This document shows positions 36,390 through 44,501 of a DNA stretch of 64,000 nt, piece by piece. The stretch is from Bradyrhizobium guangzhouense. GTDB taxonomy: Bacteria; Pseudomonadota; Alphaproteobacteria; Rhizobiales; Xanthobacteraceae. A model generated the notes under the pieces. The model ran no database searches. It saw only the letters and a list, made by a program, of their open reading frames with translations, and was not told where the DNA came from. Within the stretch, counting starts at the first letter, position 1, and each line of letters starts with the position of its first letter. Location of the stretch: positions 4,898,001 to 4,962,000 of the forward strand of contig NZ_CP030053.1 of the NCBI RefSeq assembly GCF_004114955.1. Direction: 5' to 3'. Both the position numbers and the translations under genes were made by a program.

Positions 36390-37154
36390 CTATCCGAGCA
36401 GGCCCTTCAGGCCGGCATAGATCGAGCCCACCGCGGTCGCGGCGACGCCGGCGAGCGGGCCGACCGTCTGCATCAGGTCCTGGATCAGGCGCGCGCGGCG
36501 GCGGAGCTGTTCCTCGCCGACATGCTGCCCGAGCAGCCGCGCCATCCTGAAGGCGAACGCATTGGGCTTGCCGCCCTGGCCCAGAACGCGCGGCAGGACC
36601 TGGAAGATCACGACTCCCAATATGTTTCCGGACACGAAGGCGAGCAGGATGCTCGCACCGTATTCGAACACTTCGCGCCATTCGACCCACACGGTGGGCA
36701 GGATCGGAACGTCATCGTGGAATCCGGTCACCGTCAGCATCGCCTGGATGCTGACGCTGGCGAGCAGCAACGCCAGCACGAACGCACCCGATGTCGAGAC
36801 CCGGTGCAGCGGATAGGCCGCGAACCCGAACAGCAGCGGGATCACGATCGAGGCGATGCGGAGCGGAATCGGCGACAGATTGAAGGTGATGGTGACAAGA
36901 ATATGCGCGAGCGTCAGCAGCACGGACGGAATGACGACGTAGAGGACGGCATGCGTCCCGTAATAGCGCAGCGGATTCCTGTAGCGCTCGAGCCGGACGT
37001 TGACGCGGTCGAGATCACGCCTCAGCTTGTCCAACTCGGCGACGATGTCGTCGATCTCGAGCAGCGTCGGCCGCACGACGCGTAAGTCGCGCGAGCAATG
37101 CTTGCACGCGATGGCTTCGTCCTTGATCGTCTCGGCGCAGAACGGGCACTCCAT
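36390..37154 (-). CDS. Zinc-ribbon polytopic membrane protein in CHAT operon
   Basis: 254 aa from the ATG at 37154. An N-terminal zinc ribbon MECPFCAETIKDEAIACKHC (two CXXC knuckles) is followed by an amphipathic or coiled-coil segment (about 30-65, LDKLRRDLDRVNVRLERYR) and then four to five membrane helices (about 70-215). The C-terminus is cytoplasmic-looking with Gly/Ala (VGPLAGVAATAVGSIYAGL). Last gene of the CHAT operon, starting 3 bp after the previous stop. No family assigned; it would place a cytoplasmic metal-binding domain at the inner membrane. Confidence 0.82.
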   Translation of the reverse strand: MECPFCAETIKDEAIACKHCSRDLRVVRPTLLEIDDIVAELDKLRRDLDRVNVRLERYRNPLRYYGTHAVLYVVIPSVLLTLAHILVTITFNLSPIPLRIASIVIPLLFGFAAYPLHRVSTSGAFVLALLLASVSIQAMLTVTGFHDDVPILPTVWVEWREVFEYGASILLAFVSGNILGVVIFQVLPRVLGQGGKPNAFAFRMARLLGQHVGEEQLRRRARLIQDLMQTVGPLAGVAATAVGSIYAGLKGLLG

Positions 37155-37156
37155 CG

Positions 37157-37351
37157 TCAGCGCGACGCCCTGCGCCGCATGATGGTCTCGACCTCGTCTC
37201 TGGCCCGCGCCAGCTCGTCGCGCAACTGGTCGCGCTTGCGCAGGAGATCGTCGCGCTCGGCAATCAGCGTCGCGGGCACGGCGATGTCGCGCGAACAGGA
37301 TGCGCAGACCAGCGCGCGATCGGCATTCTCGGCCTGGCAGTAAGGGCACAT
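37157..37351 (-). CDS. Small zinc-ribbon coiled-coil protein in CHAT operon
   Basis: 64 aa: MCPYCQAENADRALVCASCS forms a zinc ribbon with two CXXC pairs, followed by a heptad-like helix (ERDDLLRKRDQLRDELARAR). The ribbon and coiled coil mirror the N-terminal end of the adjacent membrane protein, as if duplicated. The ATG shares its A with the upstream TGA (TGATG). Likely an adaptor that dimerises with the membrane protein; inference. Confidence 0.78.
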   Translation of the reverse strand: MCPYCQAENADRALVCASCSRDIAVPATLIAERDDLLRKRDQLRDELARARDEVETIMRRRASR

Positions 37352-37794
37352 CACTTGGGTGCGACCTTGAGGGTGAAGATGGCCGTGCCCGGCCGCCCGT
37401 CGCTGTCCTTGATGTCGACCCGCATGGTGTAATCGCCGGGCGGCAATTCCGCATCCAGCATGTTGATCCCATCGGCCTGCACGAACGGCTTGACCCGGGA
37501 CGTCAGATCGACGTTCGGCGTGCGGAGGAACATCACCTTGACCGAATCAGGATCGATCTTGGCGCCCCCGAACGACTCGAACTTCAGTTGGAGCTTCAAG
37601 GGAGAGGCGACGGAATCTCCGGGCGAGACGAACTCCACCTTGGGACCGCGCAGGATGCCGCGCCGGTCGGCGGCGACCGCACCCTTCGGCGGCGGCAGCT
37701 TGGCCTCCTCTTCCGTGATCAATTGTGTCGCCCGCGACGCTCCGGAAAACAGGAGACCCGCCGCAACCAGCCCGAGCAAGATATTCCGCGTCAT
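37351..37794 (-). CDS. Exported Ig-like hypothetical protein in CHAT operon
   Basis: 147 aa from the ATG at 37794 (GGAAGG site). Signal peptide MTRNILLGLVAAGLLFSGAS, then a single beta-rich domain: VEFVSPGDSVASPLKLQLKF, VKVMFLRTPNVDLTSRVKPF and LPPGDYTMRVDIKDSDGRPG, the pattern of an immunoglobulin/fibronectin-like fold with an interacting-face strand. Periplasmic. It is the second gene of the CHAT operon, 26 bp after the CHAT gene, and could bind or present the CHAT protein's target. Confidence 0.78.
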   Translation of the reverse strand: MTRNILLGLVAAGLLFSGASRATQLITEEEAKLPPPKGAVAADRRGILRGPKVEFVSPGDSVASPLKLQLKFESFGGAKIDPDSVKVMFLRTPNVDLTSRVKPFVQADGINMLDAELPPGDYTMRVDIKDSDGRPGTAIFTLKVAPK

Positions 37795-37820
37795 CGTCCT
37801 TCCAATCTTCTCAAGATCAA

Positions 37821-40800
37821 TCATCGCACGCCGCCATCACCGATGATCGTATACGGCGCCCAGAACAGCGGGTGCGCGTAGGCGAACTCGGTCTTGCCCT
37901 CGCCGTTCAGGTAGCCGGGACCGTCGACCAGGGCCATCATCGCCTGCCGCAGCGCTTCGCTCCGCGACAGCTTTGGATCGTCGGCCTGCCGCTTGAACAG
38001 GTCGGTCACGAGCTGGCGGGCCGATTGAGAATGCACCGACCAGTTGGTCACCAGCAGCGCCCGCGTTCCGGCATAGAAGAACGCGCGGCCGAGGCCGGAG
38101 GCCGCCTCGGCCCCGGCGCCCGCGCCTGCGCCGGTGTTGCAGGCGGACAGGATGACCCAGTCGGCGTCGAGCTTCAGGCCCAGGATTTCCTCCATGGTGA
38201 GCAGGCCGTCTCCGCCTTCGCCCGTCACCGCCGGCGAGGACAAGGCAAGAGCCGGCTGCGTCAGCCCGTTCAGCTCGCCCGGCACGAGACCATGGGTGGC
38301 AAACGCGATGATCCTGAAGCCGGACAGATTCATCGTCTTCACGGCGCTCTCGGTCGCGTTCTTGCCGAGGAACAGCACCTTCGAGGGATCCGCCTGCAAC
38401 GCCAGCGCGATCGATTTGAGCTCGTCGGCCGTATCAGGAAGACGGGGCAACAGGCCGAGCTCGGCGCTGTCGACGCCTTCGAGCTTCGGGCTGCTGCGGC
38501 GCTTCAGCGGCATGCCGCGCGTGACGTTGCCGCCGACCTCGGCAACCTGCACCTTGCTGTCCTCGCTTTCCGCCTCGGCTTGCTGATCCCGGTTGAAATA
38601 GGGATCGCCGAACGCCACGAGATCGCCGCGGCCGGGCTTGCCGGGCGGCAACTGCCGCAGCGTGCGCAGCGCAGCCGCAGAAGGCACCGTCGAGACGGCA
38701 TGGGTCCGCGCCAGCCACGGCACGTTGCGATAGCCGACGAACAGCGGATCCTCGTCCGCGGCCACTTCCGCAGGTGCGGTCGGCAGCAGCGACAGCGGCA
38801 AGAGGCCGAGCGCGCCGTTGGTCACCACGATCAGGTTCTTGGCCGGCTTCCATCCGCTCTCGACCGGCTTGAGCAACAGTTCGTAGAGCTCGTAGGCCAG
38901 CTTCAGATCAAACGGCGGAATGTCCGAGATCATTGCCGCCTGCGGCTCGAGCGCCTCGCGCAGCTTGCGGATCTTGGTCTCGATGTCGCCGCTCCTGGCG
39001 TTGACGGCGGCAAAGGCCACCGGACCCGATTTCGGCACGGCCCAGACGAAGCTGCCGTTCTGGCCGAAATAGAACGACAACATCGCTTCGTTGTCCGACA
39101 AGGTCGCGCGGATCTCGGCGACACTCGGCGGCTTCGGCGAAACGAGATCGGCATAAACAGGGAATTTCTGCTTGATCTCCTGCCGCGCCTTGTCGCGTTC
39201 ACCGCGCAAGGCCGTGATCGACGCCTGGATCTGCTGCACCCCCTTCTCGTCGCGCTCCGCCGAGGGAATGGCGAGGACGTTGTTGAGCGTGCCGAGCTGG
39301 GCGTTGACCTGTTTTGTCAGATCCTGCTCCTTGCGGACGAGCTCGGCGAGCGCGGGATCCTTGGCCGCCGCGCGCGCGCTCGAGGCCGCCAGCGCCTGCT
39401 GCACGGAATGGCCGCGGATGGCATCGGCCAGGCTGAACGTCTCCTCGCCGACGGCGCCGCCGGTGCCCTCGGCCCGCGCGAGCAGCAGCAAATAGCTCTC
39501 GACGATGGCCTGCAGCCGCTGGCTGCGCGCGGCCACGACGGTCGTGTTCTCGTCGTCGGCGTTCTCGTTGGCGTTCGCCATCATGATCGGTATGGCGGCC
39601 TTGAACTCCCTGATCGCGTCGGCATCGCGCCGCGCGCGCATCAGGCCGATCGCGAGGGTGCCGCGCGCCGAGGCCGCATCGAAATGGTTCTCGCCGACCC
39701 GCCCGATCTGCTTCTTGACCAGTTGCTCGGCGGCGGCGATGCCGGCGTCGAGCTGGCCGGAATTGTAGAGCGCCAGAATGCGCGCCGGATTGAGCTCGAT
39801 GACCTGGCGGCGCTGCGGATCCCAATTGGCGACCGCCTTGTCGATCTGCGCGAACATCTCGTTAGCTTCGGCATTCTTGCGCCGCAGGTTGAGAATACCG
39901 GCGAGCTGCGAGAGCAGCTGCACGGTCGATTGCGAGTCATCGGGCACGCCGACCGTCTTGTCGATCTCGAGCGCGACGCGGCCGAGCTGCTCGGCTTCCT
40001 CGTAACGGCCCTCATCGACCAGGACTCCGGCCAAGCCCATCACGTAACGCGGCATCACCGGATTGTACTTGCCGGTGTCCTTCAGGCGCGACAGCAGCGC
40101 CCGGCGCGCGTCGACCTCGGCCTCGGCGAGCCTGCCCTGCCGCGCCTTCATGCGAGCCTGGCTCAGCACCATATAGTCGATCGACTGTAGGATGACGGTC
40201 TCGGCGGGAGGATTATCCGAGTCCATGATGCCCTTCATGCCGGCGCGCTTGCGCTGCTCGGCCAGGCGATAGGCGGCTTCGGCTTCCTTGAACTGTCCGC
40301 GCGCCTCGAAGATCATGGCGCGGGTGCCCTCGATTTCCGCCTCCCAATTCTGCCCCATCTTCGCATAGGAGGCGCGCCATCCGGGAAGGCCGCTGGTGCG
40401 AGCCTCCTGGATGCCGGCCAGGCTGCGCCGCAGATAGCCTTCGGCCTGCGGGATGTCGCCCATTTGAATGAGAATGCCTGCGATCGAGCGATTGGCGTTG
40501 AACAGATACCCCTTGGCGCCCGGCATCGTGGCGACCTCGCGCAACTGCCTCTGCATGATCTCGAGGGCGCGCTTCGGATCGCCGGCGGCCGAATATTGCA
40601 GGGCGGTAAGCTGGGTCAGCCGGCCCAACATGCTTGCGCTGACGGCGCCGCGTCCCACCTCGACGGCCTTGTTGGCGTCAGCGATGGATTCGGCAAGCCG
40701 TCCAAGCTGGGCGCGCGCATTGGCGCGGTCGAAGTAGAGCTGGGCGAGATCCTCGCGGGACTCTTTGCCCGTCGGCGTCGAATCCGCATCCGCCTTCAAT

Positions 40801-41228
40801 TCCGCAATCAGCTTCTCGTTCGGCTTTTCGCTGTCGAGGATCGCGGTGATGTCGGAGATGGTGCGGGGCGGCGCGATGAAATCCTTCGGCAGTGCGGTCC
40901 CCGGCGCCAGCTTGGGCGCTTCTTCCTTCGGCACCTCGACGGCGACATTGGCGCGGCCATTGGCGGCGTTGAGGGCCGCCATCACACAGGCCTTGACCTG
41001 CGGCGAGGCCTTGGCGCGGCATGCTTCCCGATCGGCACCGCCGCCCGCATGCATACAGGCCTGCACGATCGGCCGGCCGACGGTCATCCGGCAGTTCTCG
41101 AGTGCCGCCTCCTTGGTCAGTGCGGCAGCCGAGCCTGATGATCCCAGGAGAACGGCGAGGACCAGCAGTTTTCGCGGCAGGGAAACATCCAGACGGCTCT
41201 TAACCGAACTTGCGGCGTAGAAGCTCAT
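37821..41228 (-). CDS. Exported TPR-CHAT protease-like protein
   Basis: 1135 aa. A signal sequence (KLLVLAVLLGSSGSAAA, about 20-36) is followed by a Cys-containing region (four Cys within about residues 46-82), then many TPR-like helical repeats (about 140-560) and a long helical linker. The C-terminal CHAT domain is caspase-like: His979 in FATHG and Cys1030 in SACNTG form the expected dyad. Such proteins are proteases in characterised cases (separase/caspase clan, and TPR-CHAT in type III-E CRISPR), but here the protein is apparently exported. First gene of a tight operon of four; unusual localisation and partners make it notable. Confidence 0.9.
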   Translation of the reverse strand: MSFYAASSVKSRLDVSLPRKLLVLAVLLGSSGSAAALTKEAALENCRMTVGRPIVQACMHAGGGADREACRAKASPQVKACVMAALNAANGRANVAVEVPKEEAPKLAPGTALPKDFIAPPRTISDITAILDSEKPNEKLIAELKADADSTPTGKESREDLAQLYFDRANARAQLGRLAESIADANKAVEVGRGAVSASMLGRLTQLTALQYSAAGDPKRALEIMQRQLREVATMPGAKGYLFNANRSIAGILIQMGDIPQAEGYLRRSLAGIQEARTSGLPGWRASYAKMGQNWEAEIEGTRAMIFEARGQFKEAEAAYRLAEQRKRAGMKGIMDSDNPPAETVILQSIDYMVLSQARMKARQGRLAEAEVDARRALLSRLKDTGKYNPVMPRYVMGLAGVLVDEGRYEEAEQLGRVALEIDKTVGVPDDSQSTVQLLSQLAGILNLRRKNAEANEMFAQIDKAVANWDPQRRQVIELNPARILALYNSGQLDAGIAAAEQLVKKQIGRVGENHFDAASARGTLAIGLMRARRDADAIREFKAAIPIMMANANENADDENTTVVAARSQRLQAIVESYLLLLARAEGTGGAVGEETFSLADAIRGHSVQQALAASSARAAAKDPALAELVRKEQDLTKQVNAQLGTLNNVLAIPSAERDEKGVQQIQASITALRGERDKARQEIKQKFPVYADLVSPKPPSVAEIRATLSDNEAMLSFYFGQNGSFVWAVPKSGPVAFAAVNARSGDIETKIRKLREALEPQAAMISDIPPFDLKLAYELYELLLKPVESGWKPAKNLIVVTNGALGLLPLSLLPTAPAEVAADEDPLFVGYRNVPWLARTHAVSTVPSAAALRTLRQLPPGKPGRGDLVAFGDPYFNRDQQAEAESEDSKVQVAEVGGNVTRGMPLKRRSSPKLEGVDSAELGLLPRLPDTADELKSIALALQADPSKVLFLGKNATESAVKTMNLSGFRIIAFATHGLVPGELNGLTQPALALSSPAVTGEGGDGLLTMEEILGLKLDADWVILSACNTGAGAGAGAEAASGLGRAFFYAGTRALLVTNWSVHSQSARQLVTDLFKRQADDPKLSRSEALRQAMMALVDGPGYLNGEGKTEFAYAHPLFWAPYTIIGDGGVR

Positions 41229-42307: not shown

Positions 42308-43069
42308 TCAGCCCTTTGAGACGACCGCGCGTCCGTAAGGAGGCTGCGAGATGATGGGCGGATTGGTGGTTTGCGCGGCGAGCTCGCCGATCAGGCGATC
42401 GGCGTCGGCGGCCATGCCGTCAGGTGCCTGGATCACCAGCCGCTCCAGCGCCCAGCGATAGGACGAGACGCGCTGCTCGAGGCTCTGCTGCACCCACTGG
42501 ACGATCAGCGAGTTCTCCTGCATGCGCGCGACGGCGTCGGCCTTTTCCTGCGGCGACAGCGCGGAGACGCGCGCCATGCTGGCATCGCGTTTCCTGTCGA
42601 GATCGATGACGCGGATCGCGCAGGCAAAAAACGGCTCGAAGCGGGTGATGTCGTTGCGGACGTCCTCGATCAGCTGCGCATAGCGCGACGAATGCGAGCG
42701 ATGCGGCTCGTCGATCAGCGTGCGCCCATACATGGTGCGATCGAACACGACTTTCTGGTGCCATGGCGACGGCAGGGCCCGGTAATCGCCGAACACGCTC
42801 TTCCAGGCCGGCCGGGACAGCGGCGGCTCGATCATGGGATAGGCGAGATCGCGAAGCTGGCGCTCCTCGTCGGTCAACTGGAACTGGGAGGACTTCAGGC
42901 CGAGGCTGCCGGTGGCCTCAACGCCGAGCCAGCTGTGCATGTCGTCGCTGCGCATGTCGGCGCGAGTGCGGCCGAAATCACCGCCGCTGCAGCCAGCGAG
43001 CGAGGCGCCTGCAGCCGCGAGCAGAAGGGCCGATAGAACGGTGCGGATCTGGCGAATGGTATCGGGCAT
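42308..43069 (-). CDS. Hypothetical lipoprotein
   Basis: 253 aa with a lipoprotein signal peptide ending in the lipobox LAGC (Cys27) followed by SGGDFG. The mature part is helical and charged (DVRNDITRFEPFFACAIRV) and has no recognised domain. It would be anchored in the inner or outer membrane facing the periplasm. It converges with the DLH-like gene and lies just downstream of a small hypothetical gene on the same strand. Confidence 0.82.
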   Translation of the reverse strand: MPDTIRQIRTVLSALLLAAAGASLAGCSGGDFGRTRADMRSDDMHSWLGVEATGSLGLKSSQFQLTDEERQLRDLAYPMIEPPLSRPAWKSVFGDYRALPSPWHQKVVFDRTMYGRTLIDEPHRSHSSRYAQLIEDVRNDITRFEPFFACAIRVIDLDRKRDASMARVSALSPQEKADAVARMQENSLIVQWVQQSLEQRVSSYRWALERLVIQAPDGMAADADRLIGELAAQTTNPPIISQPPYGRAVVSKG

Positions 43070-43526: not shown

Positions 43527-44501
43527 ATGACCAAGTCGCTGTTTCCCGGATTCGACGGGCTGATGACACTCTCCCGCCGCGAGGGCGTCGATGTACGCCC
43601 CACTTTGCTGCGCGTGTTGACGGATCTCTATGTCCAGGCCAGCACTCACACCGAGGACGAGCAGCGGCAGTTCATCGAGCTTGCGACGCGGCTGATCGAC
43701 CAGGTCGACGATGCGACGCGCGCCTCCGTCAAGGCGAAGCTGGCGATCTATCCGCACACGCCCGTGCCGGTGCTGCAGAAGCTCGGGCTGGTCGCGGCGC
43801 AGGAAGGCCGCCGCGTGCCGCTGGCGCGCGCAATCCCGCAGCCCACGCCCGCCCCCTCGCCTGCCCGCACGCCGACCGACGCGGAAGCGCGCATGGCCGC
43901 CAATATGGCGATGCAGCCGAAGGAAGCGGCCGAGATCCACGACATGTTCTTCGGCGCCGATGCGAGCCAGCGCGCGCTGATCCTGCAAAATCTGGCGCAG
44001 ACGCCGCTGAAAGCCGCGCCGCGCATTCCAACCGTGCACGCCAAGCGCGCGATCCAGGTTCTGGAGATGGCGGCGATCGCGGGCGATGTCGACAGCTTCG
44101 CCCACGAGCTCGGCGACACCCTGATCCTGCCCTCGCGAGTCGCAGCGCAAATCGTCGACGATGCCGGCGGCGAAGCGCTTGCGGTTGCCGCGCGCGCGCT
44201 CGACATGCCGAGCCCGAACTTCCAGCGCATCCTCTTGTTCTTCAAGCCAGCGATCGGAACCTCCGTGAACGAGGTCTATCGGTTGTCGCGGCTCTATGAC
44301 CGCCTCAGCGACCGCTCGGCGCTGGTGATGCTCGCGGCCTGGCGCGGCTCGACGCTCGCCGTCACGCGCGCCAAGTACCAGCCGTCGTTGCACGACAGTG
44401 AGAGGCAGCGCGCACGCGGCGCATCCAGCCAGTCGCGGCCGAGCGTGCAGCCCGGGTCGAGCCCCGCGGTGCGGACAGGTTCAAGCGGATCAGAGCGCTA
44501 A
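43527..44501 (+). CDS. DUF2336 domain protein
   Basis: 324 aa, helical, resembling DUF2336 proteins: LATRLIDQVDDATRASVKAKL, HTPVPVLQKLGLVAAQEG and a central repeat-like alpha region (about 100-290) that may be HEAT/ARM-like. The C-terminal about 35 residues are Ser/Gly/Arg-rich and disordered. Intracellular. A perfect CtrA box 53 bp upstream suggests cell-cycle or motility control, fitting a family common in alphaproteobacteria with CtrA. Function unknown. Confidence 0.85.
   Translation: MTKSLFPGFDGLMTLSRREGVDVRPTLLRVLTDLYVQASTHTEDEQRQFIELATRLIDQVDDATRASVKAKLAIYPHTPVPVLQKLGLVAAQEGRRVPLARAIPQPTPAPSPARTPTDAEARMAANMAMQPKEAAEIHDMFFGADASQRALILQNLAQTPLKAAPRIPTVHAKRAIQVLEMAAIAGDVDSFAHELGDTLILPSRVAAQIVDDAGGEALAVAARALDMPSPNFQRILLFFKPAIGTSVNEVYRLSRLYDRLSDRSALVMLAAWRGSTLAVTRAKYQPSLHDSERQRARGASSQSRPSVQPGSSPAVRTGSSGSER

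Follow-up and report, generated by a model that had tools for sequence, protein, structure and literature searches.

What do an exported protease, an immunoglobulin (Ig)-like protein and two zinc-ribbon proteins do side by side in one bacterial operon? The question is raised by a locus of Bradyrhizobium guangzhouense in the 64,000-nucleotide stretch analysed here (contig NZ_CP030053.1, positions 4,898,001 to 4,962,000; hereafter the window), in which four open reading frames (ORFs), all on the minus strand and read in one direction, encode a tetratricopeptide repeat (TPR)-CHAT protease, an Ig-like protein (IG), a soluble zinc-ribbon protein (ZR1) and a zinc-ribbon membrane protein (ZRTM). The four genes form a conserved module, not a chance cluster, and as judged from sequence comparison its constant core is IG together with the four-helix protein ZRTM, the exported protease being exchangeable; this follows from repeated exchange of the protease beside constant partners. 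As to function, we propose, with a probability of about 45%, a cell-envelope protease module in which the periplasmic protease acts on ZRTM by way of IG, and the cytoplasmic zinc ribbon thereby switches to another state.

A conserved four-gene module

The ORF positions confirm the layout given by an earlier reading of the window made without database searches (the sequence-only reading), namely four genes spaced by 26, -1 and 2 bases, with ZR1 counted from its ATG. The CHAT protease (1135 amino acids (aa), 37821..41228; PF12770 at E = 9.4e-51, TPR_12 at E = 1.7e-11) is followed by IG (147 aa, 37351..37794), which is predicted to be exported and Ig-like, with a CopC-like fold, from its signal-like start, an AlphaFold2 model and a Foldseek search. 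Next come ZR1, a soluble zinc-ribbon coiled-coil protein (65 aa from a GTG, 37157..37354; 64 aa from a possible ATG at 37351), and ZRTM (254 aa, 36390..37154). The GTG at 37354, which gives a 4-base overlap with IG, is the likelier start of ZR1 because several close orthologues read VMC, VIC, VTC or VRC in this region.

The Pfam scan places the CHAT domain at residues 776-1131 (37836..38903) with 173.4 bits against a cut-off of 24, and this part is the best-conserved portion of the aligned protein. The alignment holds 97 rows from overlapping locus sets, one of which is a fragment of an interrupted gene that stops short of the dyad columns; in 96/96 comparable rows both His979 (38292..38294, exactly on an ATHG motif) and Cys1030 (38139..38141, exactly on SACNT) are present. 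The dyad is thus intact, as the sequence-only reading had stated. The TPR repeats that it had placed before the CHAT domain are matched by several Pfam TPR models (about residues 156-577, 39498..40763). Export, also part of that reading, is supported by prediction: a putative Sec signal peptide spans about residues 1-36 (41121..41228; hydrophobic segment 20-38), and 71 of 78 CHAT matches have a signal-peptide-like start, the misses including contig-truncated and interrupted genes. Here and below, the calls on signal peptides come from a home-made heuristic or from inspection by eye, with far upstream starts allowed for ZR1. An N-terminal domain with four cysteines (residues 41-90, 40959..41108; Cys46, 58, 70 and 81) is single-copy in the B. 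guangzhouense genome, and its cysteines are kept in 88-91 of the 97 rows. With Cys1030 they make up the five cysteines of the protein, and four N-domain cysteines without another free cysteine would fit an oxidising compartment.

A solved structural relative of the CHAT part was sought and had to be set aside, as a sequence search of the PDB returned TPR proteins only, mainly kinesin light chains. Two side observations concern related genes. One genome (G006, L042:8088-8417) carries two extra short N-domain-like stretches between CHAT and IG, as if the domain also stands alone, and another (G021) has a second CHAT gene (L191:7690-8730), 55% identical, with no IG, ZR1 or ZRTM in 19.5 kb.

Among 60 related genomes sampled, ZRTM was found in 13, all of them within the 36 of the same genus, and CHAT orthologues of at least 65% identity in 12, never without ZRTM. 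Gene order CHAT-IG-ZR1-ZRTM is kept in 12/12 genomes, B. guangzhouense included; in the thirteenth ZRTM genome (G012) a CHAT orthologue was not found, and IG-ZR1-ZRTM is accompanied by a divergent caspase gene. A wider set comprised the best 80 of 86 matches to a ZRTM profile, from Bradyrhizobium, Afipia and further Hyphomicrobiales, and profiles of all five components were run on it. A protease, IG, ZR1 and ZRTM occur together in 80/80 of these loci, most of which belong to one family (Nitrobacteraceae) and are not independent as counts. The conserved co-occurrence that the sequence-only reading had suggested looking for is therefore present, and neither of the two circumstances it had named as counting against it, partners absent beside CHAT genes elsewhere and a cytoplasmic CHAT protein, was found. 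The sample sets of this study overlap (G527/L140 and G754/L077 appear identical), and their counts are not summed, motif counts excepted. A chance or purely local cluster was rejected on the strength of the 80/80 co-occurrence, the distant loci and the protease exchange described below. On the ZRTM tree L077, recorded as Frankia sp. RB7, falls within Bradyrhizobium, and it is probably a mislabelled assembly.

Exchange of the protease

The sequence-only reading had described a CHAT-centred set; a conserved module it is, but CHAT is not its defining core, since IG and ZRTM hold that place and the protease may be CHAT or caspase. In 75 of the 80 loci the protease is a CHAT protein, its gene lying on the IG strand and upstream of IG; in the other five (L116, L117, L136, L139 and L150) it is a predicted exported caspase of the Peptidase_C14 family (C14), with no CHAT. 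Pfam recognises C14 in L136 (two genes, E = 4.2e-36 and 2.5e-36), L139 (1.4e-37), L150 (1.5e-33) and L117 (9.3e-35); the L116 caspase was identified by the C14 profile of this analysis and by reading its ORF. All seven C14 matches (7/7) have a signal-peptide-like start. Gene order in L139 is IG-ZRTM-C14-ZR1. An additional CHAT match occurs in L118, where the gene is interrupted by an in-frame stop, in L123 and in L135, the last of which also holds a C14 gene further downstream.

The caspase of L117, encoded divergently to IG-ZR1-ZRTM, carries TPRs as well as a signal peptide and a four-cysteine domain as in the CHAT protein (50% over 70 aa, E = 2e-16), so that under one N-domain stands a CHAT or a caspase domain, depending on lineage. 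Catalytic motifs are retained throughout the exchange: His and Cys motifs are kept in all C14 matches examined, the Cys of L202, L205 and L206 being assigned by eye (a first Cys pattern missed these three and L184, in which a later pattern search found it), and the CHAT dyad motifs are also present in L237, L239-L241 and L246, the pattern giving no match in L222. The B. guangzhouense genome has 13 caspase-domain genes, and most of the N-termini examined resemble signal peptides by eye.

Phylogenetic trees allow the exchanges to be counted. On a ZRTM tree of 28 rows the CHAT/C14 label needs six changes (5-6 in bootstraps; three forced by strongly supported branches), and on an IG tree of 30 rows five (4-6 in bootstraps; two forced), both trees combining 19 rows hand-picked for spread from a larger tree with 9 (ZRTM) or 11 (IG) others. 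The larger ZRTM tree (79 rows, with the other class described below not included and six of 85 rows left out as short or broken: L137, L144, L146, L148, L151 and L171) needs three changes (3-5; one forced). Because of long branches (L184, L170, L142 and others), part of the placements are uncertain; at least two protease exchanges are well supported by these sequences.

The exchange extends to more distant relatives. In a class-wide sample the ZRTM profile matched 4/385 genomes, two of them new and from other orders: G102 (L170) has C14, ZRTM and IG, and G103 (L171) has a lipoprotein-like CHAT protein, IG and a ZRTM truncated at the edge of its contig. An order-wide sample gave 14/397 genomes, and the 11 contexts read (excluding G684, G713 and G741) divide into nine with CHAT and two with C14 (G630 = L186, G789 = L184). 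With IG as bait, 10/385 genomes of the class sample matched; four are the module, and in 8/10 the stretch retrieved around IG includes a CHAT or C14 gene. L202, L205 and L206, all from one genus, encode predicted exported trypsin-caspase-DUF4384 fusion proteins near a distant IG relative (L202:13064-15877, L205:2812-5592, L206:12823-15516); their C14 part was identified by Pfam in L202 (1.5e-17), and in L205 and L206 by our own profile (E = 6e-4 and 8e-4) together with alike sequence. L203 holds a predicted exported TPR-C14 protein (1.7e-12) plus a TPR-trypsin, L204 ends at the contig edge, and in L207 a TPR-trypsin-like ORF is present and C14 was not found. IG-like proteins may thus pair with other exported protease classes too, because TPR-trypsin-like ORFs lie near distant IG relatives in L203 (L203:12117-13730) and L207 (L207:4153-5769).

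A phylum-wide sample, which overlaps the other sets, gave matches in 10/349 genomes at 12 places, with CHAT or C14 in 12/12 fetched stretches. Here a genome of another class (G992, L217) reads IG-ZRTM-C14-OmpA-IG on one strand, plus a divergent predicted exported C14 gene, and G527 (L218) has a second IG beside C14, with no ZRTM in the stretch. In the betaproteobacterium Variovorax paradoxus VAI-C (CP063167.1), genes for CHAT, a hypothetical protein (= IG) and a zinc ribbon (= ZRTM) stand side by side. Within the order of G992, matches were found in 12/300 genomes at 14 places: CHAT-IG-ZRTM in L239, L240 and L241, IG-ZRTM-C14 in L242-L245, two IG places in L217, CHAT and IG in L237, and IG with ZRTM on a 7 kb contig in L238, on which a protease was not found; weaker IG relatives lie 2 kb from CHAT (L246), next door to C14 (L248) or at a contig end (L247). 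A clan-CD protease accompanies 12/14 of these places, both misses (L238, L247) being on contigs <9 kb. Overall there are four IG-bait misses: L204, L238 and L247, on contigs <9 kb, and L207. For comparison, ~4% of positions in the B. guangzhouense genome fall within 8 kb of a C14 or CHAT place. Among these distant loci, C14 was assigned by Pfam in L170, L184, L217, L242 and L243, and by our own profile in L186, L244 and L245. In each of L242-L245, two consecutive C14 ORFs follow IG-ZRTM, the second differing in kind (LDACHSE motif). A separate ZR1 ORF was not found in 17 loci outside the Bradyrhizobium/Afipia/Hyphomicrobiales set (L170, L171, L184, L217, L222 and L237-L248), where the profile matches the ZRTM N-terminus only.

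That the partners accept a CHAT or a caspase suggests that the module conserves the cut itself rather than the protease fold. From constant IG and ZRTM beside an exchangeable, catalytically intact protease, we infer that the conserved feature is a cut or contact in the periplasm, coupled to the cytoplasmic zinc ribbon.

The partner proteins

IG has a signal-like start in 78/80 loci. Its best Pfam match, Y_Y_Y, lies below the Pfam cut-off, and its AlphaFold2 model (32 rows; all structures here are single-chain predictions) is an Ig-like beta sandwich with a predicted local distance difference test (pLDDT) score of 83. In a Foldseek comparison with the PDB, the top match was CopC (5icu; E = 2.5e-4, TM-score 0.58 on target length and 0.42 on query length), likewise a periplasmic Ig-like sandwich. 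CopC copper ligands include His residues. The IG domain of the window has 0 His and 0 Cys, and across the 32 rows the counts are 0-4 for His and 0-1 for Cys; a conserved copper site of the CopC kind is therefore missing, IG differs from CopC in having no conserved copper-type His residues, and a role as copper carrier was rejected.

Ahead of the sandwich, a linker (Arg45-Pro51, 37642..37662) with an Arg-(Gly/Ala/Ser)-Pro motif is modelled with low confidence (mean pLDDT 62 over residues 41-50), and the Arg49 of this motif is invariant in both alignments (32 rows; 11 rows). R-[GAS]-P occurs in 102/102 ZRTM-linked IG rows versus 1/8 unlinked rows, and after wider sampling in 111/111 linked (9/9 new) versus 2/12 unlinked rows (L218, L237), the motif position in unlinked rows being judged by eye and the rows overlapping between sets. 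As a candidate cut site the linker is a lead, no further, because linked and unlinked rows also differ in ancestry. The stricter R-G-P was rejected as a marker of ZRTM (98/102 linked versus 0/8 unlinked): the exceptions L112, L114, L115 and L149 read R-S-P or R-A-P, and the unlinked L218 reads R-A-P.

Two zinc-ribbon partners had been described in the sequence-only reading. Both are real, but they are not unrelated kinds: ZR1 and ZRTM share a homologous N-terminal stretch of ~56 residues (36% identity in B. guangzhouense), which makes ZR1 a soluble relative of the ZRTM N-terminus. Zinc-ribbon Pfam matches of both proteins fall below the Pfam cut-offs; in ZRTM, C3, C6, C17 and C20 of the ribbon are invariant in 26/26 aligned rows. 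By the heuristic, a signal-peptide-like start was found in 0/80 ZRTM proteins and flagged in 10/81 ZR1 matches, for which far upstream starts were allowed.

ZRTM consists of the four-cysteine zinc ribbon, a coiled coil and four predicted membrane helices, in that order, and its AlphaFold2 model (pLDDT 72) has helices at residues 24-59, 61-90, 96-117, 121-147, 156-191 and 214-253; compared with the PDB, all fold matches had E above 1. Loop 2 and the C-terminus are basic (C-terminal side, mean 7.6 K+R versus 3.1 D+E) and loop 3 is acidic (mean 4.4 D+E versus 1.4 K+R), which supports a predicted topology that puts both termini in the cytoplasm and loop 3 on the periplasmic side. This N-in/C-in four-helix topology agrees with the cytoplasmic zinc ribbon on a membrane protein that had been proposed from the window. 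Residues D147, P153, W159, R160, E161, E164 and Y165 of loop 3 are invariant in 26/26 rows, and the C-terminal segment is conserved, Gly/Ala-rich and, by eye, hydrophobic in distant versions.

ZRTM of B. guangzhouense shares 98% identity with its counterparts in Bradyrhizobium zhengyangense and B. manausense. Broken copies also occur: in Bradyrhizobium sp. Ghvi (L137:8195-8632, L043:9389-9913) the ZRTM frame is lost after ~145 residues and CHAT, IG and ZR1 are complete, and in a metagenome-assembled genome (L150:8001-8764) ZRTM is split across two frames beside the caspase, IG and ZR1 genes.

A possible relay across the envelope

Taken together, a model for the module can be put forward. A clan-CD cysteine protease, TPR-CHAT here and caspase elsewhere, would be exported to the periplasm together with IG, and its TPR/N-domain part would sense or recruit something periplasmic. 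Once active, the protease would work by way of IG, perhaps with a cut behind the invariant Arg in the flexible linker; the cut would alter the IG-ZRTM contact at the conserved acidic periplasmic loop, and ZRTM would in turn alter the state of a zinc-ribbon/coiled-coil pair in the cytoplasm, where ZR1 would be its soluble relative. The substrate, the cleavage, the signal direction and the output are those that we infer. The idea that closed the sequence-only reading, in which a protease event in the periplasm would be relayed to a zinc ribbon in the cytoplasm, fits the anatomy of the module. Orthocaspases cleave after basic residues (PMC6426788). A narrower version, a transmembrane caspase pathway in which the exchangeable exported CHAT or caspase cuts the R-[GAS]-P linker of IG and ZRTM reads the cut and relays it inward, seems to us unlikely.

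Several observations weigh against the relay. ZRTM is missing from 23/36 genomes of the genus, and none of the four genes encodes a transcription factor. B. guangzhouense has 18 distinct C14/CHAT places in 8.14 Mb (13 C14 and 5 CHAT, the latter from seven matches minus two weak ones overlapping C14); IG is single-copy, so that the other 17 of the 18 clan-CD places have no recognisable IG and the module would serve few of these proteases. The CHAT paralogue of G021 (L191) likewise stands alone. The ZRTM model is of moderate quality, its zinc ribbon scoring mostly <50, and the N-terminal region of the protein is charge-balanced (11.5 K+R versus 11.8 D+E), which leaves the N-in call to the other loops. 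With regard to the cut, the R-[GAS]-P contrast is confounded by ancestry, unlinked rows being mostly distant, and in L218 and L237 the motif is present in IG with no ZRTM in the stretch retrieved. Csx29, also a CHAT protease, cleaves Csx30 between residues 427 and 429 (PMC10028731), which lends no backing to CHAT cleavage after Arg. The relay is, finally, read from genes and single-chain models.

Some of the same evidence can be arranged differently. In six loci whose retrieved stretch yielded no ZRTM (L218, L248, L202, L203, L205 and L206), IG accompanies a protease, and Ig-fold inhibitors of cysteine proteases exist, the chagasin family being the precedent; IG might accordingly be a periplasmic inhibitor, chaperone or adaptor that guards the protease, with ZRTM and ZR1 merely anchoring or assembling the complex and no signal passing inward. 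We consider this somewhat unlikely, as it explains neither the conservation of a zinc ribbon in the cytoplasm nor that of a further, soluble ribbon in many lineages, and a single IG fold would need to accommodate CHAT and caspase alike. Nor would the cytoplasmic zinc ribbon find any use if the protease trimmed cell-wall or surface proteins and its partners were a maturation or secretion apparatus; although caspase versions in L139, L150 and L218 have peptidoglycan-binding matches below cut-off and an OmpA-domain gene lies within the L217 operon, patchy presence (13/36 genomes of the genus) argues against such an essential role, which we regard as improbable.

The conservation within ZRTM raises a further alternative, in which a cut in its periplasmic loop frees the Gly/Ala-rich C-terminal helix to permeabilise the membrane, in the manner of caspases and gasdermins. 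Loop 3 is indeed conserved and acidic, with seven invariant residues, and the C-terminal segment is conserved and, by eye, hydrophobic in distant versions; however, that segment follows a basic stretch (7.6 K+R versus 3.1 D+E) and is predicted to be cytoplasmic, PADLOC matches none of the four proteins and no PDB fold match of ZRTM had an E below 1, so that an executioner of this kind appears quite improbable. That the genes form no functional unit and are neighbours through inheritance only is extremely improbable: most of the 80 loci are Nitrobacteraceae, and their counts are not independent, but the same partners recur in other orders and another class, in different order and strand, and the protease is exchanged repeatedly on the trees. 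The relay through IG and ZRTM is our preferred reading.

The relay has partial parallels among known systems. Csx29, the TPR-CHAT protease of the type III-E clustered regularly interspaced short palindromic repeats (CRISPR) effector Craspase, performs limited cleavage of Csx30, which inhibits a sigma factor (PMC10028731). The protease described here shares with it the TPR and CHAT parts and the His-Cys dyad, limited partner cleavage being a Csx29 feature; in contrast to that RNA-guided effector, it is predicted to be exported, and its partners are Ig-like and zinc-ribbon membrane proteins. Neither Cas7-11 nor Csx30 nor Csx31 is among the four genes of the operon (PADLOC at E 0.01, Pfam scan). 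DegS is a PDZ serine protease and RseA a single-pass anti-sigma factor. In the DegS-RseA pathway a membrane protein conveys an envelope protease event across the inner membrane (PMC10028731), and the reading of an envelope cut in the cytoplasm through a membrane protein is what we propose here; the components differ, being CHAT or caspase, IG and a four-helix zinc-ribbon protein, with no sigma factor among the four genes, and the Pfam scan of the four proteins detected neither a trypsin-like PDZ protease nor an anti-sigma factor.

Bacterial metacaspases and orthocaspases include C14 proteins with TPRs, many of them in rhizobia and some in operons, and 98 of 671 C14 proteins were classed as 'membrane', in most cases on account of an N-terminal helix, possibly a signal peptide (PMC3501461). 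The main text of that survey does not contain 'zinc', 'immunoglobulin' or 'CHAT', and the IG-ZRTM partnership and the exchange with CHAT were not found in its passages; at the window locus itself, CHAT occupies the slot and no exported C14 protease is present. Mutually exclusive peptidases in one slot, as CHAT and C14 here, are known from nucleoside triphosphate (NTP)-dependent conflict systems, where trypsin or caspase fills it and some systems lie near the membrane (PMC7159879, eLife 52696). Those systems use MoxR, vWA and STAND, none of which appeared in the Pfam scan of the four proteins, and 'CHAT' and 'signal peptide' are absent from the main text of PMC7159879. A known defence system was rejected, since none of the four proteins matched any family of the PADLOC 2.0 defence models at E 0.01.

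The module resembles Csx29, DegS-RseA and the bacterial caspases in outline and, by the comparisons made here, belongs to none of them. No description of a protease combined with IG and a zinc-ribbon membrane protein was found in the open-licence literature, in which papers may be missed. That relatives keep both partners and exchange one type of protease for another may point to a so far undescribed route for a signal across the cell envelope. To our knowledge, exported caspases and CHAT proteases of Proteobacteria have no established role. The proteases of this module have two dedicated partners over two classes, which makes their substrate and pathway directly testable; if the narrower caspase pathway is true, one conserved pathway would serve a set of exported caspases and CHAT proteases in Alpha- and Betaproteobacteria. 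Near the module, and in 8/12 fetched related loci (they were not found in the other four), lie a lipoprotein-like gene (window 42308-43069) and an ORF of 324 aa (43527-44501).

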